DNA of 64,000 nt from Microglena sp. YARC (Eukaryota > Chlorophyta > Chlorophyceae > Chlamydomonadales > Chlamydomonadaceae): assembly GCA_022414725.1 (NCBI GenBank), contig CM039466.1:31162430-31226429 (forward strand), written 5' to 3'. Numbering within the stretch: position 1 is the stretch's first letter; every line of letters begins with the position of its first letter. The notes under the pieces are model-generated. The model was not told the DNA's origin. It saw only the letters and a program-made list of their open reading frames with translations, and ran no database searches. Of the stretch, positions 15,041 through 64,000 are shown piece after piece. Position numbers and translations under genes: made by a program.

Positions 15041-15312
15041 CTAGGATATACTATTAAGCATGAGACACCCTCATGTCCCCCCATCCACATAGTTGAAGTC
15101 GGCTACTGCACTAACACCAACCACTCGGTTAAATATGCGGAAAAAGGTAATTAGCACAAGACCCTATCACAGGCTCTGAAAAACTTCCCAACAGGGGGGG
15201 ATGCAAGCTCAGCACCAAACTTCACACCCATGCCACTGTCTCCTTCAAGTCCATTGTTGCGTGCAGAAGAAACATGGAACAGGCCCAAAAACCTCCCCCA
15301 GGGAGATGATAG

Positions 15313-16599: not shown

Positions 16600-17097
16600 C
16601 TCCCCAGGTCATCACCAGCCTCATACACCTCACCATCCTCACTAGCCTAATTACACCTCAACCCGCTTGCCTGCCCCCTCACCCCACCTGTAAAGGAAGG
16701 GGTCAGACCTCGGCCCCCACTCCATACCCCCTACCCCCCGCCCCACCCCTCATACTGGGAACCTCAAGTATTCGACCTCTGCCAGGCCCACTCTATGAAT
16801 AGCCAACTTGGGGGTCCCCAGGCCACCAACAGCCTCCCCCACCCAGCCATCCCCACCAGCCTAAACACATCCAGATCCAACTGCCCACCCCCACACCCCA
16901 CGTGTAGAGGAGGAGACCAACCCCCTCTCCCCCTCCCTCTTCTTCCCTCCCAACCCCACCTCCCATACTGGGAACCCCAAGCATATAATTTCTGCCACTC
17001 CCACGCCATAAATACCTACCTAGGAGGTCCGTACATAGAACCCCTAGCTATCCTCGCATACGCTGATCACCTCCGTCCACACCAGCCGCCGTAGAAT
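16600..17097 (+). pseudogene. LINE-1 duplicated N-terminal halves of the cysteine protease (copies A and B)
   Basis: A segment of about 230 bp is tandemly duplicated. Both copies carry a Pro-rich linker with CxPPHPTC(K/R)G and then the catalytic-Cys motif: SYWEPQ…LCQAHSMN (copy A, Cys at about 16,780) and PYWEPQ…FCHSHAIN (copy B, Cys at about 16,991). Copy A stops after the motif. Copy B runs into a TAG at 17,095-17,097 and continues in another frame in the next feature. The Q-x4-C-x2-H-x2-N spacing is intact in both. Confidence 0.75.
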
Positions 17098-18460
17098 TAG
17101 GGACGAGCACTACACAACTGGACACGGCCAGGGCAACTTCTCAGTCCCCCTGCTTAGCTCCTTCCTGCATCTACACCACCCCATTGTGGGCATCCTCACC
17201 CCGTTGTATAACCCCCCTTACACCCCTGCTCAGCTTCCCCTTCCTAACCATGGACACCGAGAGACATACCCCAAGGGCATCATGCCGGGCAGCACAAAGG
17301 AACAGATATTAGAGCGCCTCCACCCCCACCAGGCATGCATACTCAACTTCAGCACTGTATTATTTGGCCATGCAGCCACAATCAAACACTTCCAGGGTGA
17401 GTGGTACTTGATAGACTCTCTCAACCACCAACCCATTCTCCTGAACACCCCACGTAAATGGGCGAGCATCCAGGGCCACACCTATACACTACAACCAGGA
17501 CAACCCAATGAAGCATGGCTAGATCACAACCCCATCAACCCTATGGATGAGGACCTCCTGGAGGACCCCATGGAGGAGGACCAAGCCACAACCCCCACCC
17601 CCGCCGTACAAACAACCCAGACCACCCACCGCACCAATCTCCCATATTGGGAACCCCAAAACGACTCCAACTGCCAAATACACTCCATCAACATTTACCT
17701 GGGGTACAAAGCCCTTGATCTTGACGAAATCCTAGACTTTTCTGTAAAATTAGACACTCATGTGCGCAACTATACGTGCCAACAATGGACCCTTGAAGGG
17801 CACTATGACAGTCTCACTGGTAACTATACTAGCAATCTTATTAATTTCTACCTTTCTTCCAACAAATCTCACCTTGGCCTCCTTACTAAGCACACCAACC
17901 CAAGATACATTCCCCACCATATTAGCCCCCACACAAAAATTGCAGGGACTTCACTGACCTACTCTGAAGGTATCATGCTGGGCAGCTCACAGATGCAGAT
18001 CCTACAACGCATCCCTACCAACTTCTCTTGCTTCCTCCTACATTATCACTCTGGATATGGACATGCTAAAGCTATTAAGCAACTGGACGGTGAGTGGTGG
18101 AATATGAACTCTGAAGGCCCCTATCCCCTGAAGCCTCCTGACTGGCAACATCTTCAAGGGCACATTTACACCCTTACAGACACATCTGGACTACCCTGCC
18201 CTCAACTTTTCCAGCCTGAAATTTACTATGAACCAAACAACCCAACTCGCACTATCATTATAGACCTACCTACCACTCTTACTCACAATGCTACCGACTC
18301 CTCAGACCAGATAGATCTTACAGACCAGATGGATCTTACAGACTCCTCACAACTTCAACAACTTCTCTCAGACCTTCCACACCCTACAGATCACATTCAC
18401 CATGCAGATCCTACAGAGCCCCCAGCTCCTACAGAAACTGAGACCTTGTCTCTGATGATG
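17095..18460 (+). pseudogene. LINE-1 cysteine protease: rest of copy B and complete copy C
   Basis: One open frame holds the C-terminal half of copy B, with FGHAATIKHFQGEWYLIDS (His about 17,374), and a complete copy C: YWEPQNDSNCQIHSIN (Cys about 17,673) through YGHAKAIKQLDGEWWNMNS (His about 18,060). The order Cys…His…Asn/Asp is that of papain-fold enzymes. The spacing Q-x4-C-x2-H-x2-N and the W-x3-(D/N)-S after the His resemble the Josephin family of ubiquitin proteases. Cysteine-protease domains are known in Dualen-type LINEs. Copy C keeps all presumed catalytic residues. After about 18,450 the homologous frame shifts: the acidic/basic linker SDDEEPPKCKKPKR continues one frame away. Confidence 0.8.
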
Positions 18461-19510
18461 AGGAGCCTCCCAAATGTAAGAAACCTAAAAGAACCTCTAC
18501 CCGTTGCAACCCCACTTCCTTCCACTCAAACTCTACACATAAATCACCAACCACCAAAAAACCACCCAGGGATACAACTCAACCTCCCAAGACTAACCTT
18601 CCTATCCCTACTAGACCTGCCATACCCGACAGCAACAAGATGCGCCAGAGCAGGATCTTTGGAGCAGAACCTCCTAACAAAAAACCTGCTCCCCCCAGAC
18701 TCACCACAAAAACCCTTCCAACGAAAATAATTAAAATAACCCACACTACCTCATATCCTGTTCAACAGCAGCGAACTGCACTCTATCTCACTAACATTAT
18801 CATTTCCAACTGCAGAGGCATCTTCTCATCCTGGGAAACACTCTACGACCATATTCTAACTAATGAGCCAGACATTGCTATTCTCACCGAAACAAAACTC
18901 ACCTCTAACAACACAGGTATAATTAATATGATCAAACAAGACCTGTCTGACTACCACTTCCATCACAGCAGCAAAACCATTAAGCAAGCTACCAATGCAG
19001 ACAACATTGTAACCCGCTCAGCTGGAGTTATCACACTTATAAAAAAGACTCTTACTACACATCCAATTAAACATTAAGTCCCCACTGACATAGCTGGTCA
19101 TCTCACTCATCAAACTATTAACAACACTACCCACATTTTAGGCGTCTACATGCCCTGCAATGACCCTGCCAAAAGAGCCCGAATTCATGAACACATTCAC
19201 TACATTATATCCCAAAACCCCTCTCATCACTATATTGCAGGGGGAGACTGGAATGCAGCCTACTACCTTACTGATAGAAGCAACACAATCAAGCACCTGG
19301 AGGACCAGCCCCACTATCAACACCTTAATAAATATCCAATTCACATTCAACCGTCACCACGTCCCCATACTTACTCAGACAACACTTCCTACAGTAGCAG
19401 GATAGATGACATCATTCTCATCAACCCCCCAACTGCAACCACGGTGACAGAAGCTACACACCAAATGGGAGACACACTGGATCACTTGACCCTGGAACAA
19501 CACATTACCT
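18460..19510 (+). pseudogene. LINE-1 APE-type endonuclease
   Basis: The exonuclease-endonuclease-phosphatase fold is recognisable by its ordered motifs: SNCRGI (about 18,808), ILTETKL (catalytic Glu, about 18,873), GVYMPCND (Tyr, 19,142), GGDWNA (Asp and Asn, 19,243), SRIDDIILI (19,393) and DTLDHLTLEQ (Asp-His pair, 19,472). This domain nicks target DNA to prime reverse transcription. An in-frame TAA at 19,075-19,077 interrupts the domain between the Glu and Tyr motifs. LINE-2 lacks this stop at the same site. A basic linker (PPNKKPAPPR) precedes the domain. Confidence 0.92.
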
Positions 19511-22005
19511 CCTCTTTCTTTCCCCCTCCTAACCTTGACACACCACCTCACAATCCAACACCTCAATTGCAGCTTCCCCTCAAGCAACAAGACATGGCCA
19601 AAGCTAAAGAGGCCATCTCTAATCAATTTCTCCATCAATTTCAGCACAGCCACATTAACATAGATAAAGCCTGGACTATAGCACAAACTTTACTGGGAGA
19701 AGATAAAACATCTGCACACATTCAATCTATTAGACAAGAACTCAAAGCCACCATACCAGAAGACCTTAACAGCATGACAATTCATCTCATGGTCACTCTT
19801 CACCAAGCTCTCTCCATCATGACTGACACCTGCCCTACCAAGCCTAGTACACCAGGCACCTTCCTGCCAAGACAAACTGCTAAAACCTACAGAAGACTTA
19901 ACTACCATATTAAACACATTAAAGCACTCCGAACAGCTTCCAACCACCTTGACCAACAACAATACATGGAACTTAGAAGCACTCCACACACGGCAGGCAC
20001 ATACTCACCCACCACTAAAATTAAAATACAACAGCACTTTCAAAATTTACTCCTCTCTGACTATTGTCTCTCCTTAACTGCTGATATTAAACAAAGTATT
20101 ACAGAATTACGTCACATGCAGGTTGCACTCAAAGAGGAGAGAGCAACCGCCTCCATTAAGAAATTCCGACGCCGCTTCAGCACACAGGCACGACAAACTC
20201 ACAGGTATATTTTCTCTCCTGAAAATCACACACACACCCACTGCTCTACTGGACGCATCCACACACACACTCAGCACTAGCACCCAGGGTCTCCTGGAAG
20301 TTATGACTAAACATATGGAAAAACTCATGTCACCTCCCACTCCACCCATTTCAGATGACTAAACAAGACACGCCACCCCCCCTCCATGGGAAACACACAC
20401 AGACAAATACCACTTGGAAACTCCAGCCAACTCCATACAAAACACTGCCTCTCCCTACACCTTTCTCTCGTCCTCAACCACCTATGCTGACTATATTAGG
20501 AAACTCTCTACCAACAAAGCCACTGGCCCAGACGGCATACCTAATGAATGATTTATGTGCCTCCCACAGGAAATGCACCTCATCATACACAAACTCATGC
20601 AGCTAGTATGGATCCTGGGAGAAACACCAGACTGCTGGAAACCTCACACACAGTCATGCTCTACAAAAAATCAGATCCTTGCTTACCTCAAAACTACAGG
20701 CCAATAGGCCTTAACAATGCTGTAGCCAAACTCTGGACCTCCCTTGTTACTAACACTATTACTACCTACTCTGAAACCAACCACATTCTTAGCGCCTGCC
20801 AAGAAGGTTTCAGAAAAGACAAAAGTACCTATAGACAACTCTTGACCCTACTCCACAACATTGAGGACGCTGCCCTCTTCCACCAGGACCTCTATGCTGC
20901 CTACTTTGACTTTAGCTCTGCTTTTAACATGATTGACCACCAAAAACTTCTCTGCATCATGCACAGCTTGGGTTACACCCACGACACTATAGACACAATT
21001 AAAGGAATATACACAAACTCTACTACACATATTCTCCTTAACAATACACCTGGCTCCCCCATCCCCATCACTAGGGGCACCATCCAGGGAGATACTCTCT
21101 CCCCCCTACTCTTCATTATCTTTCTAGAACCCCTACACAGATGGCTCCGTTCTGGGGGACGAGGATACAGAGCAGCATCCCTACCCTCCAAAACAGCAGA
21201 TGAACACCACACCAGCAGCTTGGGGTATGCTGACGACACTGCTTTCCTAACCGGCAGCTCAGAGGACCTTCGCATCCAATGTGGTAAAGTTCAAACATTT
21301 AGCATCTGGTCGGGCATTCCTCTTAACGCCACCAAATGTGTGGTCAGTGGCATACTCCACAAATCACACCCCTCTCAACCTACTCACAACAACACTCTCA
21401 AACAAAGGCTAGATAAAATTCCACTAGGAAACTCCTATGCTACCTACCAGCCGCCTGACCAAGCCTACAAATACTTCACATCCCACTTACCTTAAATTGG
21501 AAAACTCAACTCCACTATACTATTGAAACCATTCACAATAAAGGGCTGAGTATCCTCACCAAAGCTAAAAACAGGGCGACCCCCACTCAATGCTTACGAA
21601 TAATTTCACAATGTGTCGGAGCAGCTATTAAATACCCCATGATAGTAGCTCCCTTCTCACTAATCGACATTCATGTCATTGACAGAGCAGTATTAAAAAC
21701 AGTTAAACTCTGCTGCTCCCTTCCCAGATATTTTCCGACAAGAGCACTCCACCTCCCTAAAGCAGAGGCAGGACTAGGGGTGCCCTCTCTACTCACTGAA
21801 TATACCCAGATTACTGCAACAGCCCTCACCCAGTCCATGAACGACCAAGGTCACCTGGGAATCCTCACTAGAGCTCTCCTTAATAAATCAACTTCCACCA
21901 TGACCAGTCTAGATCCTCTCTCTCTATCCCGCAAGCAACTTAAGTATGTGTCCCTAGCCCGCCAGCTGGAAATTATTAAAAAATCTGACAACGATTTCTT
22001 GGAAT
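19510..22005 (+). pseudogene. LINE-1 reverse transcriptase
   Basis: A helical linker leads to the RT. Fingers motif ATGPDGIPNE (about 20,520), YRPIGLNNAVAKLW (20,696), CQEGFRKDKSTYRQLL (20,798), YAAYFDFSSAFNMIDH (first catalytic Asp, 20,896), RGTIQGDTLSPLLF (21,073) and the YADD box LGYADDTAFLTG (21,222) are in order. The thumb follows to about 22,005. Catalytic residues are intact, but the frame is broken near 20,235 and 20,635, a TGA replaces a Leu codon just after PNE (about 20,551), and a further shift lies near 21,475. The stop at about 22,005 separates it from the next frame. Confidence 0.93.
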
Positions 22006-24160: not shown

Positions 24161-24610
24161 GCCTCCAGGTCTACACAGATGGTAGCCTAATAAAAGGCAA
24201 ACCAGGGCACCCTAGCAAAAAAGGTGCTGCAGTATATGTCCCGGCTGCAGGACAAAGCTACACCATCAACCCTGGGGGAATAGGGGCCACCAAAACTAAC
24301 AACAGGGCAGAACTGGTAGCCATCCACCAAGCCCTTCTCAACATTGACTATGACAAATCTCTTACACTCCATACAGACAGCCTCTGCTCTCTTCAACTTA
24401 TTAAAAAAATGATTCATGACCCTACCACAACAACCCGTTCTATTCATACTGAACTACTGCAATCAATTCAAAAACACCTCATTCAACGCATCCTGCATGG
24501 CTCCCACACCACTCTTTGTAAAGTCCGTTACCACACAGGTTATCCTTGGAAATGACAGGGCAGACATTCTGGCACGCAAGGCAGCTGAGCACCCTGCCTC
24601 CACCAATTTT
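24160..24610 (+). pseudogene. LINE-1 RNase H domain
   Basis: VYTDGSLIKG (first Asp, about 24,172), NNRAELVAIHQAL (Glu, 24,300) and LHTDSLCSLQL (Asp, 24,367) are in frame with the preceding region. The last motif, YHTG…LGNDRADILARKA, is split by a frameshift near 24,540. The domain removes RNA from RNA/DNA hybrids; it is found in several LINE clades including Dualen. All four acidic residues are present if the two frames are read in sequence. Confidence 0.92.
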
Positions 24611-25624
24611 ACTGACAACACTGGGGAAATCCCCCGCCACAATGTCTACTGGCCCACAGTTCAACCTCCTCGCACACCCATGGGAGATATTCTCCCACGC
24701 ATCCTAGCACCTAACCTTACACAAGGTATCACCTCTAACCTGCCCACTAGCTGCCACCTTGGCCAACACCCTCTTAAAGGGATTTATGCAACCACCTGGG
24801 CTGATAACACTCCCCACCAACTTCCTCATGCAAGTAACAAATTTTGGACCTCAACCCTTATCCAACATAAAACTAAATTCCACATCCTTAAAGCCCGCTG
24901 GGGTCGACTGTGGAACCGTAAACTTGCATTCCGCTGGAAACTCCCTTATATTACCAGCACTCACCCACCCACGAACTCCCTATGCCCCATCTGCCACTCC
25001 TGTGAGGACGGAGCGGGCCACATCCTGGCGGGCTGCACACACCGGACTTTCAAGGGGCTCTATATCAAGAGACATGACGCCGCAGTGCGACTCATCCACA
25101 AGGCCATTTGCACCGGAGCCCTGGGATCCCGCAGAATGATCATGGACGCTGGCAAGGAAGAGGACCTCCCCAGGGGGGTCCTGGGCAAACGTCTCCCTGA
25201 CTGGCTACGCCCCTCCACTATTACTGTGGAGGACTGGAAGAGAATGAGACCTGACCTCGCCGTCCTACCTGACATAGACTCTCCTACCTGTATGGCTGAT
25301 AAAGAACTCTGGGTTCTTGAGCTTGGATACTGCTCTGATACCAACCATGTTACTAAGTTTATCACTAAACACGCCCAGCATGTTGAATTAGTAAATGGCC
25401 TTAGATCGGCTGGATACCTCGTTCACTACGAAGTTATCACCGGTGGAACAACTGGTCCTATTCCAACCTCTTTTTTGACTTCCATGACCACACTTGGACT
25501 TAAGAGACCGTGTGCCCTTAAACTGGCGGACACAGTTCACTCCCACACAATCACTAGCTTTCAGAGTATTTTACAGTGCAGACGTTTTATGGAAGCTAAC
25601 CCCGGGTTGATACCCGGGGACTAG
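24610..25624 (+). pseudogene. LINE-1 C-terminal CCHC finger and restriction-like endonuclease
   Basis: The frame runs to the stop at 25,622-25,624. It has CPICHSCEDGAGHILAGC (C-x2-C-x8-H-x4-C, about 24,984), KRHDAAVRLIHKA (25,068), RPDLAVLPD (25,248) and WVLELGYCSDTNH (25,312), ending in a conserved CRRFME…PGD tail. A CCHC finger followed by R-H-N/D, then R/K-P-D and an acidic residue is the layout of the restriction-enzyme-like endonuclease in R2-type LINEs. Together with the upstream APE domain this makes a dual-endonuclease element. LINE-2 matches closely (46,876-46,184). Confidence 0.87.
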
Positions 25625-36675: not shown

Positions 36676-39600
36676 GGCATTTCCAAGGTCAGTTCATGAC
36701 ATTTCCAATGCCAATAAGCTGCGGCTCGTAGCTGAAAAGAAAAACACTGCCCAAGCGCCAAGTAGGGACCAGCATATCATATGATGTTGACAAAAGGCAA
36801 GTATGATATCATATGGTATCATACAAACTGCATCATATGATATTGTATGTAAATGGTAACTTTAGCCTAGTCAGAATGCCGGCATCATATGATATCATAT
36901 TGACATTCCATATCTCCAAGTACCCGAGCTTATGATCTGACCTCATACACGGACTAGTGTGGACTCGGACTTCCCTTTCCCCCAAAGAAATAGCGGACCC
37001 TAAGGACTAGTCCACGGTTTATTTTATGGGCCACATAAAAGAAACCAATGACATGGCAGCTTCACGTCAGCAGCCACTGGGTCAAACCAAAAGCTTGCAG
37101 ATGCATTGAAATGCCAGATTTATGAGGCACTAGCTAGCTTCACGTTTGGCTCAAGGACAGGGAAAGGGAGCTGCCTAGAAGCTGCTACGCGTAGCCCATA
37201 AAAGAAACAATAGAGTCCTCAACGAAATTACTGTCTTGACCGAATCTCAACACAAGTATTCCTATAAATAATTAGACGTTCCCCTTTCCTCAACACTGTA
37301 TCACTACCTGTTTTTTAAGGAAAGGAATCAGTGTCTGTATGTAGCACCATTGTGATCTTAGCAGTCCTTAGGGTGCTCCTAGCAGCCTCCTCGACCCACA
37401 TAAGGCTGAAGCGCAGCACACAAAATACCAAGGTGCGCAACGTAGCACTTGTGCTACAAGTAGCACCTTGACTAAAAGCCTGGTGATGGCGGTACAATTG
37501 AAAATTGTCCTGCCTTGCCACGGGGCGTGAGTTTAAAAAATCCTTTCCGTTCGTTTGCACTGGGGAATGGTTACTGTGGGTTTTGCGTTTGCAGACTGCT
37601 ACTGAGCCCGGAGTCAGACTACCGCGAAACAGCACGGAGGAAAGATCTCGGCCCCTTTCATGGCGGCAAGTGGCACGTTGAAGAAAAAGCTTGAATGCTC
37701 TGCCTGACTCCTTGAAACATGCGATTGCTGTTTCGGACATCTTGCCTAAGGTCCTTGGCTACGCTCTTAATCCGGAGTATGCAGGATGGATTAAGCACCC
37801 CCCTTGAGCTCTCGATAATAGTGATAAGTGTTAAAGAGACAGCACATCCAACTGAACCAAAGTATGCAGGATGGATTAAGCATTTCCACTGTGCTCTCGG
37901 TAATAGTTTTAAGTGCCAAAGAGTGAGCACCATTCAACTTGATCCGGAGTATGCAGCATGGATTAAGCAACCCCATTGTGCTCTCGATAATAGTGATAAG
38001 TGTTAAAGAGTGAGCACCATTCAACTTGATCCGGAGTATGCAGTATGGATTAAGCAACCCATTGTGCTCTCGGTTATAGTGATAAGTGTTAAAGAGTGAG
38101 CACCATACAACTTGATCCGGAGTATGCAGCATGGATTAAGCAACCCCATTGTGCTCTCGGTAATAGTTATACGTGCCAAAGAGTGAGCACCATACAACTT
38201 GATCAGAGTATGCAGGGAGCAGCATGCGGCCAACACTCTGCTCTACATGCTGGGCACAGCATCACGTGTTTGTTCTGCCAAGGGCCTCTTTTCGCTCCTG
38301 AGTGCCGCACACGAGTTTGCTTACGCACCGTTAGAGCTGTCAACAGCTGTGAGGCGTACCCTGGAGCTTGTTCTGCCGAGGGCCTCTTTCGCCAGAGTGC
38401 CGCACGCAAGTTGTTTACACACCGTTAGAGCTCTCTAGACAGGTTTGAGGCGTGCCGTGGAGCTTCTTTCCGCTGGCATGGCATTTCCAAGGTCAGTTCA
38501 TGACATTTCCAATGCCAATAAGCTGCGGCTCGTAGCTGAAAAGAAAAACACTGCCCAAGCGCCAAGTAGGGACCAGCATATCATATGATGTTGACAAAAG
38601 GCAAGTATGATATCATATGGTATCATACAAAACTGCATCATATGATATTGTATGTAAATGGTAACTTTAGCCTAGTCAGAATGCCGGCATCATATGATAT
38701 CATATTGACATTCCATATCTCCAAGTACCCGAGCTTATGATCTGACCTCATACACGGACTAGTGTGGACTCGGACTTCCCTTTCCCCCAAAGAAATAGCG
38801 GACCCTAAGGACTAGTCCACGGTTTATTTTATGGGCCACATAAAAGAAACCAATGACATGGCAGCTTCACGTCAGCAGCCACTGGGTCAAACCAAAAGCT
38901 TGCAGATGCATTGAAATGCCAGATTTATGAGGCACTAGCTAGCTTCACGTTTGGCTCAAGGACAGGGAAAGGGAGCTGCCTAGAAGCTGCTACGCTTAGC
39001 CCATAAAAGAAACAATAGAGTCCTCAACGAAATTACTGTCTTGACCGAATCTCAACACAAGTATTCCTATAAATAATTAGACGTTCCCCTTTCCTCAACA
39101 CTGTATCACTACCTGTTTTTTAAGGAAAGGAATCAGTGTCTGTATGTAGCACCATTGTTGATCTTAGCAGTCCTTAGGGTGCTCCTAGCAGCCTCCTCGA
39201 CCCACATAAGGCTGAAGCGCAGCACACAAAATACCAAGGTGCGCAACGTAGCACTTGTGCTACAAGTAGCACCTTGACTAAAAGCCTGGTGATGGCGGTA
39301 CAATTGAAAATTGTCCTGCCTTACCACGGGGCGTGAGTTTAAAAAATCCTTTCCGTTCGTTTGCACTGGGGAATGGTTACTGTGGGTTTTGCGTTTGCAG
39401 ACTGCTACTGAGCCCGGAGTCAGACTACCGCGAAACAGCACGGAGGAAAGATCTCGGCCCCTTTCATGGCGGCAAGTGGCACGTTGAAGAAAAGCTTGAA
39501 TGCTCTGCCTGACTCCTTGAAACATGCGATTGCTGTTTCGGACATCTTGCCTAAGGTCCTTGGCTACGCTCTTAATCCGGAGTATGCAGGATGGATTAAG

Positions 39601-42600
39601 CACCCCCTTGAGCTCTCGATAATAGTGATAAGTGTTAAAGAGACAGCACCATCCAACTGAACCAAAGTATGCAGGATGGATTAAGCATTTCCACTGTGCT
39701 CTCGGTAATAGTTTTAAGTGCCAAAGAGTGAGCACCATTCAACTTGATCCGGAGTATGCAGCATGGATTAAGCAACCCCATTGTGCTCTCGATAATAGTG
39801 ATAAGTGTTAAAGAGTGAGCACCATTCAACTTGATCCGGAGTATGCAGTATGTATTAAGCAACCCCATTGTGCTCTCGGTTATAGTGATAAGTGTTAAAG
39901 AGTGAGCACCATACAACTTGATCCGGAGTATGCAGCATGGATTAAGCAACCCCATTGTGCTCTCGGTAATAGTTATACGTGCAAAGAGTGAGCACCATAC
40001 AACTTGATCAGAGTATGCAGGGAGCAGCATGCGGCCAACACTCTGCTCTACATGCTGGGCACAGCATCACGTGTTTGTTCTGCCAAGGGCCTCTTTTCGC
40101 TCCTGAGTGCCGCACACAAGTTTGCTTACGCACCGTTAGAGCTGTCAACAGCTGTGAGGCGTACCCTGGAGCTTGTTCTGCCGAGGGCCTCTTTCGCCAG
40201 AGTGCCGCACGCAAGTTGTTTACACACCGTTAGAGCTCTCTAGACAGGTTTGAGGCGTGCCGTGGAGCTTCTTCCGCTGGCATGGCATTTCCAAGGTCAG
40301 TTCATGACATTTCCAATGCCAATAAGCTGCGGCTCGTAGCTGAAAAGAAAAACACTGCCCAAGCGCCAAGTAGGGACCAGCATATCATATGATGTTGACA
40401 AAAGGCAAGTATGATATCATATGGTATCATACAAACTGCATCATATGATATTGTATGTAAATGGTAACTTTAGCCTAGTCAGAATGCCGGCATCATATGA
40501 TATCATATTGACATTCCATATCTCCAAGTACCCGAGCTTATGATCTGACCTCATACACGGACTAGTGTGGACTCGGACTTCCCTTTCCCCCAAAGAAATA
40601 GCGGACCCTAAGGACTAGTCCACGGTTTATTTTATGGGCCACATAAAAGAAACCAATGACATGGCAGCTTCACGTCAGCAGCCACTGGGTCAAACCAAAA
40701 GCTTGCAGATGCATTGAAATGCCAGATTTATGAGGCACTAGCTAGCTTCACGTTTGGCTCAAGGACAGGGAAAGGGAGCTGCCTAGAAGCTGCTACGCTT
40801 AGCCCATAAAAGAAACAATAGAGTCCTCAACGAAATTACTGTCTTGACCGAATCTCAACACAAGTATTCCTATAAAATAATTAGACGTTCCCCTTTCCTC
40901 AACACTGTATCACTACCTGTTTTTTAAGGAAAGGAATCAGTGTCTGTATGTAGCACCATTGTGATCTTAGCAGTCCTTAGGGTGCTCCTAGCAGCCTCCT
41001 CGACCCACATAAGGCTGAAGCGCAGCACACAAAATACCAAGGTGCGCAACGTAGCACTTGTGCTACAAGTAGCACCTTGACTAAAAGCCTGGTGATGGCG
41101 GTACAATTGAAAATTGTCCTGCCTTACCACGGGGCGTGAGTTTAAAAAAATCCTTTCCGTTCGTTTGCACTGGGGAATGGTTACTGTGGGTTTTGCGTTT
41201 GCAGACTGCTACTGAGCCCGGAGTCAGACTTACCGCGAAACAGCACGGAGGAAAGATCTCGGCCCCTTTCATGGCGGCAAGTGGCACGTTGAAGAAAAGC
41301 TTGAATGCTCTGCCTGACTCCTTGAAACATGCGATTGCTGTTTCGGACATCTTGCCTAAGGTCCTTGGCTACGCTCTTAATCCGGAGTATGCAGGATGGA
41401 TTAAGCACCCCCCTTGAGCTCTCGATAATAGTGATAAGTGTTAAAGAGACAGCACCATCCAACTGAACCAAAGTATGCAGGATGGATTAAGCATTTCCAC
41501 TGTGCTCTCGGTAATAGTTTTAAGTGCCAAAGAGTGAGCACCATTCAACTTGATCCGGAGTATGCAGCATGGATTAAGCAACCCCATTGTGCTCTCGATA
41601 ATAGTGATAAGTGTTAAAGAGTGAGCACCATTCAACTTGATCCGGAGTATGCAGTATGGATTAAGCAACCCCATTGTGCTCTCGGTTATAGTGATAAGTG
41701 TTAAAGAGTGAGCACCATACAACTTGATCCGGAGTATGCAGCATGGATTAAGCAACCCCATTGTGCTCTCGTAATAGTTATACGTGCCAAAGAGTGAGCA
41801 CCATACAACTTGATCAGAGTATGCAGGGAGCAGCATGCGGCCAACACTCTGCTCTACATGCTGGGCACAGCATCACGTGTTTGTTCTGCCAAGGGCCTCT
41901 TTTCGCTCCTGAGTGCCGCACACGAGTTTGCTTACGCACCGTTAGAGCTGTCAACAGCTGTGAGGCGTACCCTGGAGCTTGTTCTGCCGAGGGCCTCTTT
42001 CGCCAGAGTGCCGCACGCAAGTTGTTTACACACCGTTAGAGCTCTCTAGACAGGTTTGAGGCGTGCCGTGGAGCTTCTTCCGCTGGCATGGCATTTCCAA
42101 GGTCAGTTCATGACATTTCCAATGCCAATAAGCTGCGGCTCGTAGCTGAAAAGAAAAACACTGCCCAAGCGCCAAGTAGGGACCAGCATATCATATGATG
42201 TTGACAAAAGGCAAGTATGATATCATATGGTATCATACAAACTGCATCATATGATATTGTATGTAAATGGTAACTTTAGCCTAGTCAGAATGCCGGCATC
42301 ATATGATATCATATTGACATTCCATATCTCCAAGTACCCGAGCTTATGATCTGACCTCATACACGGACTAGTGTGGACTCGGACTTCCCTTTCCCCAAAG
42401 AAATAGCGGACCCTAAGGACTAGTCCACGGTTTATTTTATGGGCCACATAAAAGAAACCAATGACATGGCAGCTTCACGTCAGCAGCCACTGGGTCAAAC
42501 CAAAAGCTTGCAGATGCATTGAAATGCCAGATTTATGAGGCACTAGCTAGCTTCACGTTTGGCTCAAGGACAGGGAAAGGGAGCTGCCTAGAAGCTGCTA

Positions 42601-45600
42601 CGCGTAGCCCATAAAAGAAACAATAGAGTCCTCAACGAAATTACTGTCTTGACCGAATCTCAACACAAGTATTCCTATAAATAATTAGACGTTCCCCTTT
42701 CCTCAACACTGTATCACTACCTGTTTTTTTAAGGAAAGGAATCAGTGTCTGTATGTAGCACCATTGTGATCTTAGCAGTCCTTAGGGTGCTCCTAGCAGC
42801 CTCCTCGACCCACATAAGGCTGAAGCGCAGCACACAAAATACCAAGGTGCGCAACGTAGCACTTGTGCTACAAAGTAGCACCTTGACTAAAAGCCTGGTG
42901 ATGGCGGTACAATTGAAAATTGTCCTGCCTTGCCACGGGGCGTGAGTTTTAAAAAATCCTTTCCGTTCGTTTGCACTGGGGAATGGTTACTGTGGGTTTT
43001 GCGTTTGCAGACTGCTACTGAGCCCGGAGTCAGACTACCGCGAAACAGCACGGAGGAAAGATCTCGGCCCCTTTCATGGCGGCAAGTGGCACGTTGAAGA
43101 AAAGCTTGAATGCTCTGCCTGACTCCTTGAAACATGCGATTGCTGTTTCGGACATCTTGCCTAAGGTCCTTGGCTACGCTCTTAATCCGGAGTATGCAGG
43201 ATGGATTAAGCACCCCCCTTGAGCTCTCGATAATAGTGATAAGTGTTAAAGAGACAGCACCATCCAACTGAACCAAAGTATGCAGGATGGATTAAGCATT
43301 TCCACTGTGCTCTCGGTAATAGTTTTAAGTGCCAAAGAGTGAGCACCATTCAACTTGATCCGGAGTATGCAGCATGGATTAAGCAACCCCATTGTGCTCT
43401 CGATAATAGTGATAAGTGTTAAAGAGTGAGCACCATTCAACTTGATCCGGAGTATGCAGTATGTATTAAGCAACCCATTGTGCTCTCGGTTATAGTGATA
43501 AGTGTTAAAGAGTGAGCACCATACAACTTGATCCGGAGTATGCAGCATGGATTAAGCAACCCCATTGTGCTCTCGGTAATAGTTATACGTGCCAAAGAGT
43601 GAGCACCATACAACTTGATCAGAGTATGCAGGGAGCAGCATGCGGCCAACACTCTGCTCTACATGCTGGGCACAGCATCACGTGTTTGTTCTGCCAAGGG
43701 CCTCTTTTCGCTCCTGAGTGCCGCACACGAGTTTGCTTACGCACCGTTAGAGCTGTCAACAGCTGTGAGGCGTACCCTGGAGCTTGTTCTGCCGAGGGCC
43801 TCTTTCGCCAGAGTGCCGCACGCAAAGTTGTTTACACACCGTTAGAGCTCTCTAGACAGGTTTGAGGCGTGCCGTGGAGCTTCTTCCGCTGGCATGGCAT
43901 TTCCAAGGTCAGTTCATGACATTTCCAATGCCAATAAGCTGCGGCTCGTAGCTGAAAAGAAAAACACTGCCAAGCGCCAAGTAGGGACCAGCATATCATA
44001 TGATGTTTGACAAAAGGCAAGTATGATATCATATGGTATCATACAAACTGCATCATATGATATTGTATGTAAATGGTAACTTTAGCCTAGTCAGAATGCC
44101 GGCATCATATGATATCATATTGACATTCCATATCTCCAAGTACCCGAGCTTATGATCTGACCTCATACACGGACTAGTGTGGACTCGGACTTCCCTTTCC
44201 CCCAAAGAAATAGCGGACCCTAAGGACTAGTCCACGGTTTATTTTATGGGCCACATAAAAGAAACCAATGACATGGCAGCTTCACGTCAGCAGCCACTGG
44301 GTCAAACCAAAAGCTTGCAGATGCATTGAAATGCAGATTTATGAGGCACTAGCTAGCTTCACGTTTGGCTCAAGGACAGGGAAAGGGAGCTGCCTAGAAG
44401 CTGCTACGCGTAGCCCATAAAAGAAACAATAGAGTCCTCAACGAAATTACTGTCTTGACCGAATCTCAACACAAGTATTCCTATAAATAATTAGACGTTC
44501 CCCTTTCCTCAACACTGTATCACTACCTGTTTTTTAAGGAAAGGAATCAGTGTCTGTATGTAGCACCATTGTGATCTTAGCAGTCCTTAGGGTGCTCCTA
44601 GCAGCCTCCTCGACCCACATAAGGCTGAAGCGCAGCACACAAAATACCAAGGTGCGCAACGTAGCACTTGTGCTACAAGTAGCACCTTGACTAAAAGCCT
44701 GATGATGGCGGTACAATTGAAAATTGTCCTGCCTTGCCACGGGGCGTGAGTTTAAAAAATCCTTTCCGTTCGTTTGCACTGGGGAATGGTTACTGTGGGT
44801 TTTGCGTTTGCAGACTGCTACTGAGCCCGGAGTCAGACTACCGCGAAACAGCACGGAGGAAAGATCTCGGCCCCTTTCATGGCGGCAAGTGGCACGTTGA
44901 AGAAAAGCTTGAATGCTCTGCCTGACTCCTTGAAACATGCGATTGCTGTTTCGGACATCTTGCCTAAGGTCCTTGGCTACGCTCTTAATCCGGAGTATGC
45001 AGGATGGATTAAGCACCCCCCTTGAGCTCTCGATAATAGTGATAAGTGTTAAAGAGACAGCACCATCCAACTGAACCAAAGTATGCAGGATGGATTAAGC
45101 ATTTCCACTGTGCTCTCGGTAATAGTTTTAAGTGCCAAAGAGTGAGCACCATTCAACTTGATCCGGAGTATGCAGCATGGATTAAGCAACCCCATTGTGC
45201 TCTCGATAATAGTGATAAGTGTTAAAGAGTGAGCACCATTCAACTTGATCCGGAGTATGCAGTATGGATTAAGCAACCCCATTGTGCTCTCGGTTATAGT
45301 GATAAGTGTTAAAGAGTGAGCACCATACAACTTGATCCGGAGTATGCAGCATGGATTAAGCAACCCCATTGTGCTCTCGGTAATAGTTATACGTGCCAAA
45401 GAGTGAGCACCATACAACTTGATCAGAGTATGCAGGGAGCAGCATGCGGCCAACACTCTGCTCAACATGCTGGGCACAGCATCACGTGTTTGTTCTGCCA
45501 AGGGCCTCTTTTCGCTCCTGAGTGCCGCACACGAGTTTGCTTACGCACCGTTAGAGCTGTCAACAGCTGTGAGGCGTACCCTGGAGCTTGTTCTGCCCAG

Positions 45601-52459: not shown

Positions 52460-53700
52460 TTGGTTAAGTTGTTGGTAGGATTTAGCTGTCTTTCTGGGAG
52501 GAAGATGCCAGAGATGGTTTGTTTAGTGGGGCAAGTCTCTATCATTATACTGAGGGCTTGATGCAGGGTGGTCATAAGGTGGTCGGCCATACTGTTGAGG
52601 TCTTCTGGAAGTGTAGTCATCAGTTCCTGCCTGATGGATTGAATGTGAGAGGCAGTCCTGTCTTCCCCAAGAAGGTCCTGAGCAGTTTTGCCAGGCGGAT
52701 TCTATGTTAGTGTGGGAGCTCAGGAATTGGTGGAGGTATTGAGTAGTGATGGCTTGCCTAGTTTTCTCTTTGTCTGATTGTTTAAGAGGGAGGAGGAGCT
52801 GAGGGGAGGTGTAGGTGTTGGTTGGAGGTATGGCAGGAGGGGGGAGGAGAGTGGAGGTGAGGCGTTGCTCAAGTGCATGGTGGTCTAGGGTGTCCCCCAT
52901 TTGGTGGGTGCTTTCAGTGGTGTGGGTGCCCGGAGGTGAGTTGATGAGCAGGATATCATCAATACGACTGCTGTAGGGGGTGTTGTTGCTGCAAGAAAAG
53001 TATGTGTGAGGTCTGGGTTGTGGTTGTGGAGTGATACAGAGTTGAGAAATGTGTTGCTGGTGAGAAATGTCATCTGGATATTTGGTTAGACTGCTTCTGT
53101 CAGTGGTGTGGCATGTGGCATTCCAGTCCCCAGCTAGGATGTAGTGGTGGGTAGGATTTTTCTCAGTAATGTGGTGGATGTAGGAGTAGATGTTCTCTCT
53201 TTTGGGGGCATCGTTACAGGGCATGTAGACGCCCAGGACATGGGTTATGTTGTTTACGGTTTGGTGAGTAATGTGTCCAGAGAGTTCGACTGGAGTTTCA
53301 TGATTGACTGGGTGAGCAGTGACTGTTTTCCTGATTAGGGTAATGACCCCTGCTGAGGGGGTGACTATTTTGTCAGGGCTGGTAGCTTGGAGAGTAGTTT
53401 TGCTGTTGTGGTGGAAGTGATAATCATGCATGTCTGATTTAATCATGTTTAGAATGGATTTTCTGTGTGAGAGTAGTTTGGTTTCAGTGAGAATTATTAT
53501 ATCATTATCCCTGGATCTAATGTGATCATCTATGACTTCCCAGGAGGATCCAATTCCCCTGCAGTTGATAGTGGTGATGTTAGTGTCATTAAGAATGTGT
53601 TCCTGCTGTTGGACAGGGTGGTCTGAGGTTTGTTCAGAGTATTTAGGCTTACTACGTTTCACCGGTGAGGTGGGCTTGGTAGTGCTGATGGACTGCTGCT
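52460..53700 (-). pseudogene. LINE-2 APE-type endonuclease and linker
   Basis: The frame 53,662-52,523 contains TINCRGIGSSWE, ILTETKL, LGVYMPCND, AGDWNA, SRIDDILLI and DTLDHHALEQ: the full ordered motif set, uninterrupted. A basic linker (VKRSKPKYSE) precedes it, and a frameshift near 52,690 disrupts the helical linker to the RT. Confidence 0.92.
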
Positions 53701-54700
53701 TCTTGGACGGGGGGGGAGCTCCAGGGATCCGGGTCTGTCTGAGCTTGTTGTATTCAGGGATGGTAGGCCTGCTGGGGGTGGGGAGCCTTGCTGCCTGTAT
53801 TGGGGGGGGAAGGTAACTTCGTGACCGTTTTTTAGTGGTGGTAGTTTTCTTGGATTTTTTTAGATTTTTTGGTAAGAGGTGTAGGGTTTCTTACGTTTTG
53901 CGTGGGATTCATCCTCAGATACTAGATTAGATAATGTCATCATCTTCGTCTGTGGGTGTTTCAGTGTTATTTTGAGTGGTAGGGATTGTTTGATCTGGTG
54001 GTGAAGGTGGTGGATTGGTGTAGGTGTTGATCTGTTGAGAGTCTTCTAGGATGGTACCATTGGTATTAGGGTGGGGATTGGTTGGATCAAAATAGAGATC
54101 AGGTTGAAATGGATGGCCATGGAAGGAGGGTGTAGCCTGGCTAAGAGTGTAGAAGCGCCCCTGGAGCTGGTGCCAGTCTTGGGGGGTTAGGATGGTGGGT
54201 ACAGAGATTTCAGAGTCAAGGTTGTACCATTTATTGTTGTAGTATTTGATAGTGATTGCATGACCATAGCCATTGGACCAGTAGTGCGTATGAATTTGGT
54301 GCTATTGATGGGAATTCTGCTAAGGATTTGTTGTTTGGTGCTACCAAGTTGGATGCCTGTTTCATAGTTTTCTTCAGTGTTAGGAGATGAGGTGTGTAGT
54401 GGTGTGTATGGGTGGTTCCTGTGGCTGACCAGGTATCCAGTGCCAGTCTGCTTGGTGAAGGTGTAGTAGTCAATAAGGGCATTATTATGGTTTCCAGAGG
54501 GGTTGAGAAAATATGATCCCATAACCTTCCAGTGATTATCAGTGGCTCTAGTGACTTGAGTGTGGAGTTTGTTAGCAAAGTCTAGGACTAGATTGATATC
54601 CATGGCTTTGTATCCAAGGTAGGCATTGATGGAGTGAATTTGGCAGTGAGAGGCTGTTTGGGCTTCCCAGTATGGGGCAGACTCAGACTTACTTTGTAGG
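53700..54700 (-). pseudogene. LINE-2 cysteine protease (single copy) and acidic linker
   Basis: Minus strand: PYWEAQTASHCQIHSIN (Cys about 54,655), a middle part with GIQLGSTKQQILSRIP, then after a frameshift near 54,290 NGYGHAITIKYYNNKWYNLD followed by S (His about 54,262). Q-x4-C-x2-H-x2-N and the His and W-x3-D-S motifs match LINE-1 copies B and C. An acidic stretch (TDEDDD) and a basic one (AKRKKP) follow before the endonuclease. Only one protease copy is present here, so the duplication is specific to LINE-1. Confidence 0.8.
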
Positions 54701-55260
54701 CGTCTGCTTCCTCTGGGTCTACCTCCTCTGAGTGTGGGGGGTGTAGGAGGAGTGGAGAGGGGGCAGCTGTAGGGGTACTTACTGCTGTGAGCATCCTCCT
54801 GAGTATCTGAGCTGTCTATGGGTAGAGTGAGCGCAGGAGAGATAGGGGAGGGAAGAGTGCAGGCAAGGTATAATCTGTTACAAGTTGTAATCTCAGCACA
54901 GGAGTGGCAGGCTGTGCCTTTGGTCTGGCAGGGGTTCACATTATAAGGAGATAGTGTCCAGAGGGGCTCATATCCATGTCTATTTTTCTATTTTTGTTGC
55001 TCTTGCTATGGATGTTTCCACTGGGACAGTGGGTAGTGCTGATAAGAGAGAAGAGCAGGAGGAGCAGTGCTGTTATCCAGAGGTCCAGGGGGTTTGCTAC
55101 TTCCTGTGTCCCTTGAAGGTGTTGGCTTTGGGGTAAGCCTTGTTGGCTGTGGTGCTGGCAACCTGTGGAGTGGTGAGTGTTTTGATGTTGTTGGTTTTTG
55201 GTGGCAGGGATGCAGGTGTAGAAGGTACTATAGGGTTTGGTTTGATTGGGGTTTACCTTG
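54700..55260 (-). pseudogene. LINE-2 membrane helix and Cys-rich linker
   Basis: The frame 55,598-54,936 ends with LWITALLLLLFSLISTTHC, a likely membrane helix. The next frame (54,939-54,187) starts with CQTKGTACHSCAEITTC, a cluster of cysteines, and a Pro/Ser-rich linker to the protease. LINE-1 has a comparable helix and Pro-rich linker in the same place. Confidence 0.5.
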
Positions 55261-56641
55261 AGAGCAGCTGTTTGGAGGAAGCTGCTCCAGTCATTTCCCA
55301 GTTCAGGGTCTGCTGGGGTGTTGCAGTGCTCACTGGTGATGGCACCTGCTCCAAAGATGTCATCATCATCAGCGGCTTCATAGGGTGCAGGTGGCCAAGC
55401 TGCAGGTGGATCAGGGGTTTCATGGTTGAGGAGCATGTCAACAATGGCCTTCTGGTAGGTGGTGACATGGTATTCGGGGGGGTGTCCATCCAGGGAGGTC
55501 TTGAGAGCCTTCCATTGGTCCAGGTCACCCTTGGTGTGGGGGTCAAGGGGGCCTTTTCCTTGGCGGAATTCTTGGAGATCTCTCTCCTGATCATCCAAGT
55601 GGCCAGGCAGTTCCAGATCTTGCCTGGCTTGCCCTTGGTCATGGCAGTGTCGTAGTCAGGGAGGAAGGAGGGCCTGAGGGTGTAGGTAGAGCCACCAGAA
55701 TGGAGGATGCCTCTGGTGGAGAGGAAGGTTATCAGGACTGTAGCTCTGTTTAAGAGCATGAGGTGGATGCCTCGGTTGGCTTGTGTTGACCTGGTGATAG
55801 GATCATGTAAGTAGAGAGGGATGCCCTCCCTGGTGACAAGGGAGTTGTTAATGTGAGCAGCGGTGGTGACATAATCGCTGCAGATCTTTTCCCTGGAGAT
55901 GATTTCCCACAGGTCTGGTGAGTGTAGGTCCTCATCAAGGCCCTCCAGCTCCTTGGGGAACATCCTCCTCAGAGTAGCGAGGTAGTGCCTGTTGGATTCC
56001 ATGATGACTTGGTGCAGTCCAAGGCGGTCTTCAAGGTTGACGATCTGGTCAGTCTTCAAGATCACTGAGCACTGGTAGGCATCTGAGGGGATGTTGGAGG
56101 GGCTGATGAAGAGGCTGTAGTGGTCAGTCCTCCTGATGTGGAGGGGGAGCAGGGACTCAATGGACTCCTTGATTGCGGGAGTGGCGCACATGGCGCTGGT
56201 GACAGTCCTCTTGTCGCGAGTGGTCTCTACCAGCATGAAGTTGAGTGAGTTATGCACTGTCATGGTGTCGTCGTGGTCTTCTTTGTTAATCAAGGCGAGC
56301 TGGAGGATGACCTCGAGCTTCACAAGCCAGTTGGGTTTGTCTTCTGCTTCGATGTTCCTCCAGTCGGAGTGCATGTAAGCTTCAGAGGCTCGGCGAACCT
56401 CCTCGATGTCGTGGAAGTCGAGGTGGTCAGGAGGGGGATAAGTCACTGGGACAGAGAAGCTGAGGGGAGGTGATGGTGAGGTGAGTTTCCTGGGGGGTCC
56501 TGCGACTTCCGCATCATCTGCGGCGTTGGTCTTCTGCCCCTTGGCCTTCTTGGTGGGAGGGGCATGGTCATGGCCAGGGGCATCAGGGTTGGAGAAGGGT
56601 GTGGGAGGGTCAGTGACATCTGTGCCCTGTGCTTCTGTCAT
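55260..56641 (-). pseudogene. LINE-2 ORF1-like protein
   Basis: A 462-codon frame starts at 56,641 with an acidic/Pro-rich N-terminus and a possible nuclear signal (PPTKKAKGQK), then a well-composed globular region from about residue 65 to 360 (e.g. LEVILQLALINKEDHDD, EKICSDYVTTAAHINNS). After about 55,590 the meaningful sequence continues in a neighbouring frame (DDQERDLQEFRQGKG… to FGAGAITSEHC). No zinc knuckle or RRM was recognised. As the upstream ORF of a LINE it is probably the RNA-binding or assembly protein. No clear match was found in LINE-1. Confidence 0.55.
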
Positions 56642-61789: not shown

Positions 61790-64000
61790 GCCATTCAGTC
61801 CCACGCCACGCCACCCAACCCTAACCCACCCCACCAACCCACCCCTAACAACACACCCTAACCCAACACACCCTCCTAACCCAACACACCCTAACCCACC
61901 CAACCCAACCCTACCTCACCCATCCCTAACCCAACACACCCCTAACCCCTAACCCAACCCTAACCCACCCAACCCAACCCTACCTCACCCCACCCTAACC
62001 CAACACACCCTAACCACACCCAACCCTAACCCCACCCAACCAACCCTACCTCACCCCACCCTAACACCCTAACCCAAACACACCCTAACCCACCCAACCC
62101 TAACCCACCCAACCCAACCCTACCTTCACCCCACCCCTAAACCCAACAACCCACCCTAACCCACCCAACACCCTAACCCACCCAACCCAAACCCTACCTC
62201 ACCCCACCCTAACCCACCCACACACCCACCCACCCTAACCCACCCAACCCTAACCCACCCAACCCAACCCTACCTCACCCCACCCTAACCCAACACACCC
62301 TAACCCACCCAACCCTAACCCACCCAACCCAACCCTACCTCACCCCACCCTAACCAACACACCCTAACCCACCCAACCCTAACCCACCCAACCCAACCCT
62401 ACCTCACCCCACCCTAACCCAACACACCCTAACCCACCCAACCCTAACCCACCCAACCCAACCCTACCTCACCCCACCCTAACCCAACACACCTAACCCA
62501 CCCAACCCTAACCCACCCAACCCAACCCTACCTCACCCCACCCTAACCCAACACACCCTAACCCACCCAACCCTAACCCACCCAACCCAACCCTACCTCA
62601 CCCCCACCCTAACCCAACACACCCTAACCCACCCAACCCTAACCCACCCAACCCAACCCTACCTCACCCCACCCTAACCCAACACACCCTAACCCACCCA
62701 ACCCTAACCCACCCAACCCAACCCTACCTCACCCCACCCTAACCCAACACACCCTAACCCACCCAACCCTAACCCACCCAACCCAACCCTACCTCACCCC
62801 ACCCTAACCCAACACACCCTAACCCACCCAACCCTAACCCACCCAACCCAACCCTACCTCACCCCACCCTAACCCAACACACCCTAACCCACCCAACCCT
62901 AACCCACCCAACCCAACCCTACCTCACCCCACCCTAACCCAACACACCCTAACCCACCCAACCCTAACCCACCCAACCCAACCCTACCTCACCCCACCCT
63001 AACCCAACACACCCTAACCCACCCAACCCTAACCCACCCAACCCAACCCTACCTCACCCCACCCTAACCCAACACACCCTAACCCACCCAACCCTAACCC
63101 ACCCAACCCAACCCTACCTCACCCCACCCTAACCCAACACACCCTAACCCACCCAACCCTAACCCACCCAACCCAACCCTACCTCACCCCACCCTAACCC
63201 AACACACCCTAACCCACCCAACCCTAACCCACCCAACCCAACCCTACCTCACCCCACCCTAACCCAACACACCCTAACCCACCCAACCCTAACCCACCCA
63301 ACCCAACCCTACCTCACCCACCCTAACCCAACACACCCTAACCCACCCAACCCTAACCCACCCAACCCAACCCTACCTCACCCCACCCTAACCCAACACA
63401 CCCTAACCCACCCAACCCTAACCCACCCAACCCAACCCTACCTCACCCCACCCTAACCCAACACACCCTAACCCACCCAACCCTAACCCACCCAACCCAA
63501 CCCTACCTCACCCCACCCTAACCCAACACACCCTAACCCACCCAACCCTAACCCACCCAACCCAACCCTACCTCACCCCACCCTAACCCAACACACCCTA
63601 ACCCACCCAACCCTAACCCACCCAACCCAACCCTACCTCACCCCACCCTAACCCAACACACCCTAACCCACCCAACCCTAACCCACCCAAACCCAACCCT
63701 ACCTCACCCCACCCTAACCCAACACACCCTAACCCACCCAACCCTAACCCACCCAACCCAACCCTACCTCACCCCACCCTAACCCAACACACCCTAACCC
63801 ACCCAACCCTAACCCACCCAACCCAACCCTACCTCACCCCACCCTAACCCAACACACCCTAACCCACCCAACCCTAACCCACCCAACCCAACCCTACCTC
63901 ACCCCACCCTAACCCAACACACCCTAACCCACCCAACCCTAACCCACCCAACCCAACCCTACCTCACCCCACCCTAACCCAACACACCCTAACCCACCCA
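61790..64000. repeat. 65-bp satellite of telomere-like words, runs off the window
   Basis: From about 62,230 the sequence is a very regular array with a 65-bp period (ACCCTACCTC starts at 62,981 and 63,046). The unit is built of CCCTAACCCA, ACCCAACCC, CTACCTCACCCC and ACACACCCTAA. The first 450 bp (61,790-62,230) is a more diverged edge. About 27 regular copies are present. It uses TAACCC words but is not a simple telomere repeat, so it is best seen as a subtelomere-like or other tandem satellite. C/A-rich on this strand, with no gene. Confidence 0.93.

Follow-up and report, generated by a model that had tools for sequence, protein, structure and literature searches.

Cysteine proteases of the ubiquitin and small ubiquitin-like modifier (SUMO) type are carried by several kinds of transposable elements (TEs). 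Ulp1-like domains occur in the NeSL and Utopia groups of long interspersed nuclear elements (LINEs), OTU or Ulp1 domains in Ginger1 and OTU domains in Helitrons, the position being N-terminal in the LINEs (PMC4640811, PMC2836005). Among other LINEs, Dualen is described as encoding both an apurinic/apyrimidinic endonuclease (APE) and a restriction-like endonuclease (RLE), with an RNase H also reported (PMC4640811). A further family of such proteases, the Josephins, includes ataxin-3 and JOSD2 as well as the bacterial proteins PaJOS, BpJOS, PcJOS, SnJos1 and SnJos2. We know of no eukaryotic Josephin in a mobile element, and elements of the Dualen group are said to carry cysteine proteases. A literature search at the level of titles and abstract openings brought up no recognisable case of a TE with a Josephin. 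Here we focus on a stretch of 64,000 nucleotides from the green alga Microglena sp. YARC (GCA_022414725.1, contig CM039466.1, positions 31,162,430 to 31,226,429; hereafter the window), which holds one LINE on the plus strand (LINE A) and a second on the minus strand (LINE B). They represent a high-copy LINE whose polyprotein contains a built-in Josephin cysteine protease together with an APE, a reverse transcriptase (RT), an RNase H and possibly an RLE.

The likeness was originally proposed from short motifs around the putative catalytic residues in both LINEs, in LINE A at the domain dom2 (Table 1), and these motifs are present. In window frame 2, Q-x4-C-x2-H-x2-N at the Cys reads QNDSNCQIHSIN, at the stated place, and GHA..K near the His, followed by W-x3-N-S, reads GYGHAKAIKQLDGEWWNMNS. 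Both boxes recur in LINE B as QTASHCQIHSIN and GYGHAITIKYYNNKWYNLDS, where a frame break near 54287 separates them. Across the six frames of the window the pattern of the Cys box matches five times, whereas 60 random sequences from a first-order Markov model averaged 0.20 matches, with 1 at most. Four of the five window matches lie within LINE units, and the fifth is a chance match that contains a stop. Taken by itself, the His/Asn pattern matches no more often than chance would give (four matches in the window against a random mean of 6.3), so the case for Josephin rests on the whole domain. Across it, Gln, Cys, His and Asn/Asp follow one another in the order and with the spacing of Josephins, the distances Gln-Cys (5) and His-Asn (15) being those of ataxin-3. 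One correction concerns the third residue of the triad, which is Asp in some lineages and Asn in others.

That the domain belongs to the Josephin family, and not to OTU, is supported by Pfam, by profile searches of the Protein Data Bank (PDB), by comparison of hidden Markov models (HMMs) and by the predicted fold, in agreement with the original prediction. The open reading frame (ORF) at 17186-18727 matches Pfam Josephin (PF02099, gathering cut-off 26 bits) in two stretches with 33.8 bits (E 3.6e-8), and a genome copy outside the window reaches E 1.9e-12. Copies in which two Josephin domains are open score 47.7 (L022) and 44.7 bits (L011). Scanned alone, dom2 stays under the cut-off with 23.2 bits, as do six single-domain frames with 14.8 to 22.3 bits; the B-type domain of L076 gives 29.1 bits by itself and 20.5 bits within its whole frame of 2588 aa, and no Pfam Josephin match was found in P0001, one of the relatives in protein databases. 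A scan of the genome with the Josephin family returned six places above the cut-off, at 27.9-31.7 bits; the top match (G000:C1:151324589-151324678, 31.7 bits) covers model positions 1-30 only and may be an exon from a Josephin gene of the host.

Against PDB sequences, dom2 alone gave no significant match. With a profile of five domain rows, six of the eight matches at E <= 10 were Josephins, and with 13 rows all six were, namely PaJOS (E 1.3e-4), ataxin-3 (0.0019-0.0024), ataxin-3-like protein (0.035) and JOSD2 (0.32). The HMM-HMM comparison gave 93.2% for JOSD2 and ATXN3 together with eight rows, fragments included, and 89.6% with 13 rows, against 0.28% and 0.08% for OTUB1. Taken singly, ATXN3 reached 58.5 and 60.4 and JOSD2 66.2 and 16.8 with the respective profiles, while the maxima in shuffle controls were 0.99 (200 shuffles) and 6.26 (150 shuffles); the alignment extends past the triad and takes in the GN block. 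A first AlphaFold model was of low quality (pLDDT 45.9); its Foldseek list nevertheless opened with BpJOS and ataxin-3, and its VIA list did not discriminate. The folds that best match a second model, of moderate confidence, are Josephins: PcJOS and PaJOS stand within the five closest and BpJOS lower, with ubiquitin-specific proteases (USPs) and C39-type peptidases following the Josephins, so that the predicted fold appears to be the Josephin variant of the papain fold. The absence of OTU from these fold lists carries no evidential weight. An NCBIfam scan yielded nothing useful.

With ataxin-3 and JOSD2 the LINE domain has in common the order and spacing of the triad, the GN block, the (D/N)-S motif and the fold; some 135-139 positions can be aligned, of which 25-27% are identical. 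It differs from both in the residue after the catalytic His, which is aromatic in ataxin-3 and JOSD2 and Ala in all 49 rows of an alignment set led by the A type and in all 26 rows of a B-type set. Ala at this gatekeeper position is seen in SnJos1 and SnJos2 and is not known to be a defining feature of clippases. The best PDB profile match, PaJOS, is a bacterial clippase. Irreversible cleavage by bacterial Josephins is described in PMC12224918 and in PDB titles, and is reportedly the subject of Hermanns et al. (2025), to go by the title. SnJos1 (A346) and SnJos2 (A348), which have the same Ala, cut ubiquitin chains at a slow rate, fail with ubiquitin probes and with Ub-AMC, and are not improved by an added aromatic (PMC10643670). 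The identity of the protease was correctly recognised from the start, with an anatomy that was incomplete: it lacked this Ala and the tandem domains of one lineage.

Whereas the bacterial Josephins are separate proteins, the domain described here is part of a polyprotein and is doubled in the A lineage. The upstream domain, dom1, is about 36-37% identical to dom2 and precedes it, whole or in part, in 29 of 30 A-type loci (L001-L030; only partial in L002, L010 and L016, missing in L006). Both lie in one stop-free frame in three of ten loci inspected (L008, L011 and L022), which together with the 29 loci rules out that the tandem is an accident of the window copy. One Josephin domain each was seen in LINE B and in the lineages other than A. 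The window copy of LINE A is not intact, its downstream coding sequence being split across several frames; relatives elsewhere in the genome show more of the architecture. Josephin, APE and RT lie within the single 2588-aa frame of L076, and in L031 one frame of 2296 aa runs from Josephin to RT and RNase H, its APE part being recognised by resemblance to P0001. The frame continues upstream in L033, L034 and L048 via a region without a known family, called gag-like by position, and a hydrophobic stretch (one stop each in the upstream frames of L033 and L034). Such transmembrane-like stretches, for example CFLVIDFYSTLLIVPLLLA, stand in frame before an RGG tripeptide in L033, L034, L048 and L076. 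The position of the Josephin between the N-terminal region and APE/RT is one at which a protease of a retroelement might be looked for.

In its remaining domains the element resembles Dualen/RandI, from which the Josephin sets it apart: APE (PF03372 in LINE B, P0001 and L076), RT (PF00078) and RNase H (PF00075; LINE A and L031) are present. The RT of LINE A finds R2 as its best RT match in the PDB, then others including L1. The RLE is a candidate, with motifs CPIC-x8-H-x4-C and RPD-x14-D recognised by eye only; its region has no PDB match, and zf-RVT gives E 0.69. Like NeSL/Utopia, Ginger1 and Helitrons, the element carries a ubiquitin/SUMO-type cysteine protease, N-terminal as in the LINEs among them. 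Unlike these carriers of Ulp1 or OTU, it has a Josephin, a tandem arrangement, and RGG and SUMO-type motifs alongside.

Matches to dom2 in the genome number at least 153 (150 of 1604 candidates were scored) and those to LINE B at least 150 (150 of 1330 scored); the two sets overlap at their divergent end, and both counts are lower bounds. The top 50 dom2 matches are 93-100% identical and the top 32 LINE B matches 97-100%, which suggests a recent expansion of both types and an abundant, recently active element. Grouping by identity gives about six lineages, A to F, of which C and F are close. The protein database yielded four relatives in all (P0001-P0004), and none was found in phages, plasmids, IMG/VR or GTDB contigs at the sensitivity of the scans. 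The A-type-led set of 49 rows represents 48 distinct places, as L006 and L031 are one place, and includes the window copy as L001; Cys is kept in 47, His in 47 and Asn/Asp in 48. In the B-type set of 26, with the window copy as L051, Cys is kept in 26, His in 26 and Asp in 25. As these loci were picked by best match or open frame, they do not represent old copies at random. One copy with 81.5% identity to dom2, L050, has an open frame of 703 aa and a Ser in place of the catalytic Cys. Among representatives, the ratio of non-synonymous to synonymous substitution rates (dN/dS) is 0.09-0.52 in the 26 pairs out of 28 for which it was computable, 23 of the 26 falling at 0.09-0.32, with dS near saturation in many pairs; the six nearer pairs (dS 0.35-0.53) give 0.18-0.32. 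These ratios indicate purifying selection on the Josephin domain.

Two short motifs accompany the domain. The tripeptide RGG, which resembles the tail of ubiquitin, occurs once, 18-20 residues ahead of the first YWE[AP]Q Josephin box, in eight of nine frame pieces (two of which hold one stop). It stands 19 residues before the domain in 24 of 26 B-type loci, is present in 18 of 20 upstream contexts inspected, and is the sole tripeptide that all seven representatives, lineage D supplying two, share within the upstream 60 residues. Synonymous changes (AGA, AGG, CGG) are seen among its codons, and the residue before it is L, P, C, R or S. It has been lost in L041 and L060; L031, with an unrelated 5' side, has no RGG upstream. 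The window copies made it conceivable that these codons mark a 3' splice site, with YAG ahead of AGGAGG, and this reading was rejected: the E lineage has CTACGG without YAG, and in L033, L034 and L048 the frame reads through this place.

The second motif, [VI]xLVS[DTE][DE]E, lies in the linker between Josephin and APE and fits the consensus of phospho-regulated SUMO-interacting motifs. Its pattern matches in 43 of 49 Josephin-bearing loci, which are 42 of 48 places, although some copies have it in a frame other than that of dom2. Among B-type frames 12 of 26 have it; forward frames totalling 195,189 residues hold 19 matches against 0.1 in shuffles. As many copies with the motif are near-identical, the independent evidence comes down to a handful of lineages. 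Examples are found near 2302 in L022 and in L076, and in L038 the motif comes after several repeats of the DLTL type, which look like additional motifs of this kind. The linker is otherwise variable, apart from LVS, TTK, KKP and LPT, each kept in six of six representatives, and RIFGA in five of six (for instance near 2515 in L022), mostly followed by (E/G)xPxKK.

Membership in the Josephin family, kept triads and purifying selection together make a live enzyme likely, and going by its family, cleavage at the tail of ubiquitin would most likely be its activity. We give a probability of roughly 0.6 to the whole statement that it cleaves or clips ubiquitin near the element's own ribonucleoprotein (RNP) or its target site. 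An active Josephin would recognise the RGG tail of ubiquitin and strip or clip ubiquitin off the element's own proteins or off host factors present where the element inserts. Its SUMO-interacting-like motif would guide it to chromatin or RNPs that are marked with SUMO and targeted by ubiquitin, which would so be shielded from degradation. This suggests an element that interferes with the cell's protein-tagging system or cuts its own proteins with the same chemistry. The latter would make the domain a polyprotein protease that cuts at the upstream RGG, either after it in the manner of a deubiquitinase or between R and GG in the manner of a clippase, and separates the N-terminal portion from the one with protease, APE and RT. 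Such a role, which does not exclude the other, is a serious rival though distinctly less probable. It is favoured by the conserved position of RGG, by its being the one tripeptide kept in every representative through synonymous codon changes, and by the place of the protease between the N-terminal region and APE/RT. Weighing against it, RGG could instead be an RNA-binding motif, the residue ahead of it varies, the copies named above are without it, and no second RGG lies between Josephin and APE. A combined reading, in which the (tandem) Josephin both matures the polyprotein at an RGG that mimics the C-terminus of ubiquitin and removes or clips the ubiquitin of targets marked with SUMO, with the SUMO-interacting motif for docking, appears doubtful. 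Were it true, the element would counter host defence by a logic comparable to that of the coronavirus papain-like protease PLpro.

A catalytically dead or structural Josephin, its fold kept for binding ubiquitin or other proteins, would agree with the divergence of the family and the missing aromatic after the His. We consider it improbable, since almost every copy examined, and each of the tandem domains, retains Cys, His and Asn/Asp, and bacterial enzymes of the family that likewise have Ala there do cleave ubiquitin chains, if slowly (PMC10643670). In favour of another papain-like family, the Cys box is common to papain-like folds, and USPs and C39-type peptidases come next in the fold lists. 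Nevertheless, an OTU, Ulp1/C48 or USP domain, or a chance motif, is largely refuted and highly improbable: Pfam gave no OTU, Ulp1 or USP match (E <= 10 for the Josephin pieces, E <= 5 for the ORF), the OTUB1 values are those given above, and every PDB match of the 13-row profile is a Josephin.

Table 1. Features of the two LINEs in the window.
Feature	Position	Strand	Remarks
Josephin domain dom2, LINE A	17639..18253	+	Pfam, PDB profile, predicted fold
Putative catalytic residues of dom2	Cys 17672-17674, His 18062-18064, Asn 18107-18109, oxyanion Gln 17657-17659	+
Upstream tandem Josephin dom1, LINE A	16960..17521	+	Frame 1 to ~17082, then frame 2; Cys, His, Asp kept
Third, partial unit (Cys box only)	16753..16812	+	26-nt repeat common to all three units
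RGG codons 5' of dom1 (CRGGDQ)	16906..16914	+
SUMO-interacting-like motif (DLVSDDEE)	18442..18465	+	Out of frame with dom2 here; in frame in many relatives
APE region, LINE A	18789..19875 (approximate)	+	Spread over more than one frame; resembles the APE of LINE B; PF14529 under cut-off (E 0.0025)
RT, LINE A	20548..21495	+	PF00078 E 4.2e-26
RNase H, LINE A	24163..24543	+	PF00075 E 1.7e-11
Candidate zinc knuckle and RLE (CPIC-x8-H-x4-C; RPD-x14-D..E)	24983..25321	+	By eye only
Single Josephin domain, LINE B	54074..54678	-	Frame break ~54287; Cys, His, Asp kept
RGG codons, LINE B (LRGGRPRG)	54721..54729	-
APE, LINE B	52523..53662	-	PF03372 E 3.8e-10
ORF, LINE B	55253..56641	-	By eye like N-terminal polyprotein part of L033/L034 ('gag-like' label); no Pfam match

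Just upstream of LINE A, window 15083-15145 is 52% identical over 21 residues to the C-terminal end of LINE B and is perhaps a remnant of another related LINE. Repeats occupy other parts of the window: a 37-bp minisatellite (84-643); a 33-bp minisatellite (835-2077) that is open in several frames and yields spurious long ORFs; between the two LINEs a large nested repeat of five 87-bp tandem arrays at a spacing of about 1805 bases (37766-45435); and a 130-bp satellite of CCCTAA-like telomeric words that runs from 61888 to 64000 and continues past the window end.

With the LINE Josephin, one more family of the deubiquitinase type joins the few ubiquitin/SUMO-type proteases that TEs carry, and it offers several testable lineages, natural tandem pairs among them. 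If the enzyme cleaves itself from its polyprotein at RGG, it would show a route from deubiquitinase to polyprotein protease; if it is active, ubiquitin control as a battlefield between LINE and host would become directly testable.
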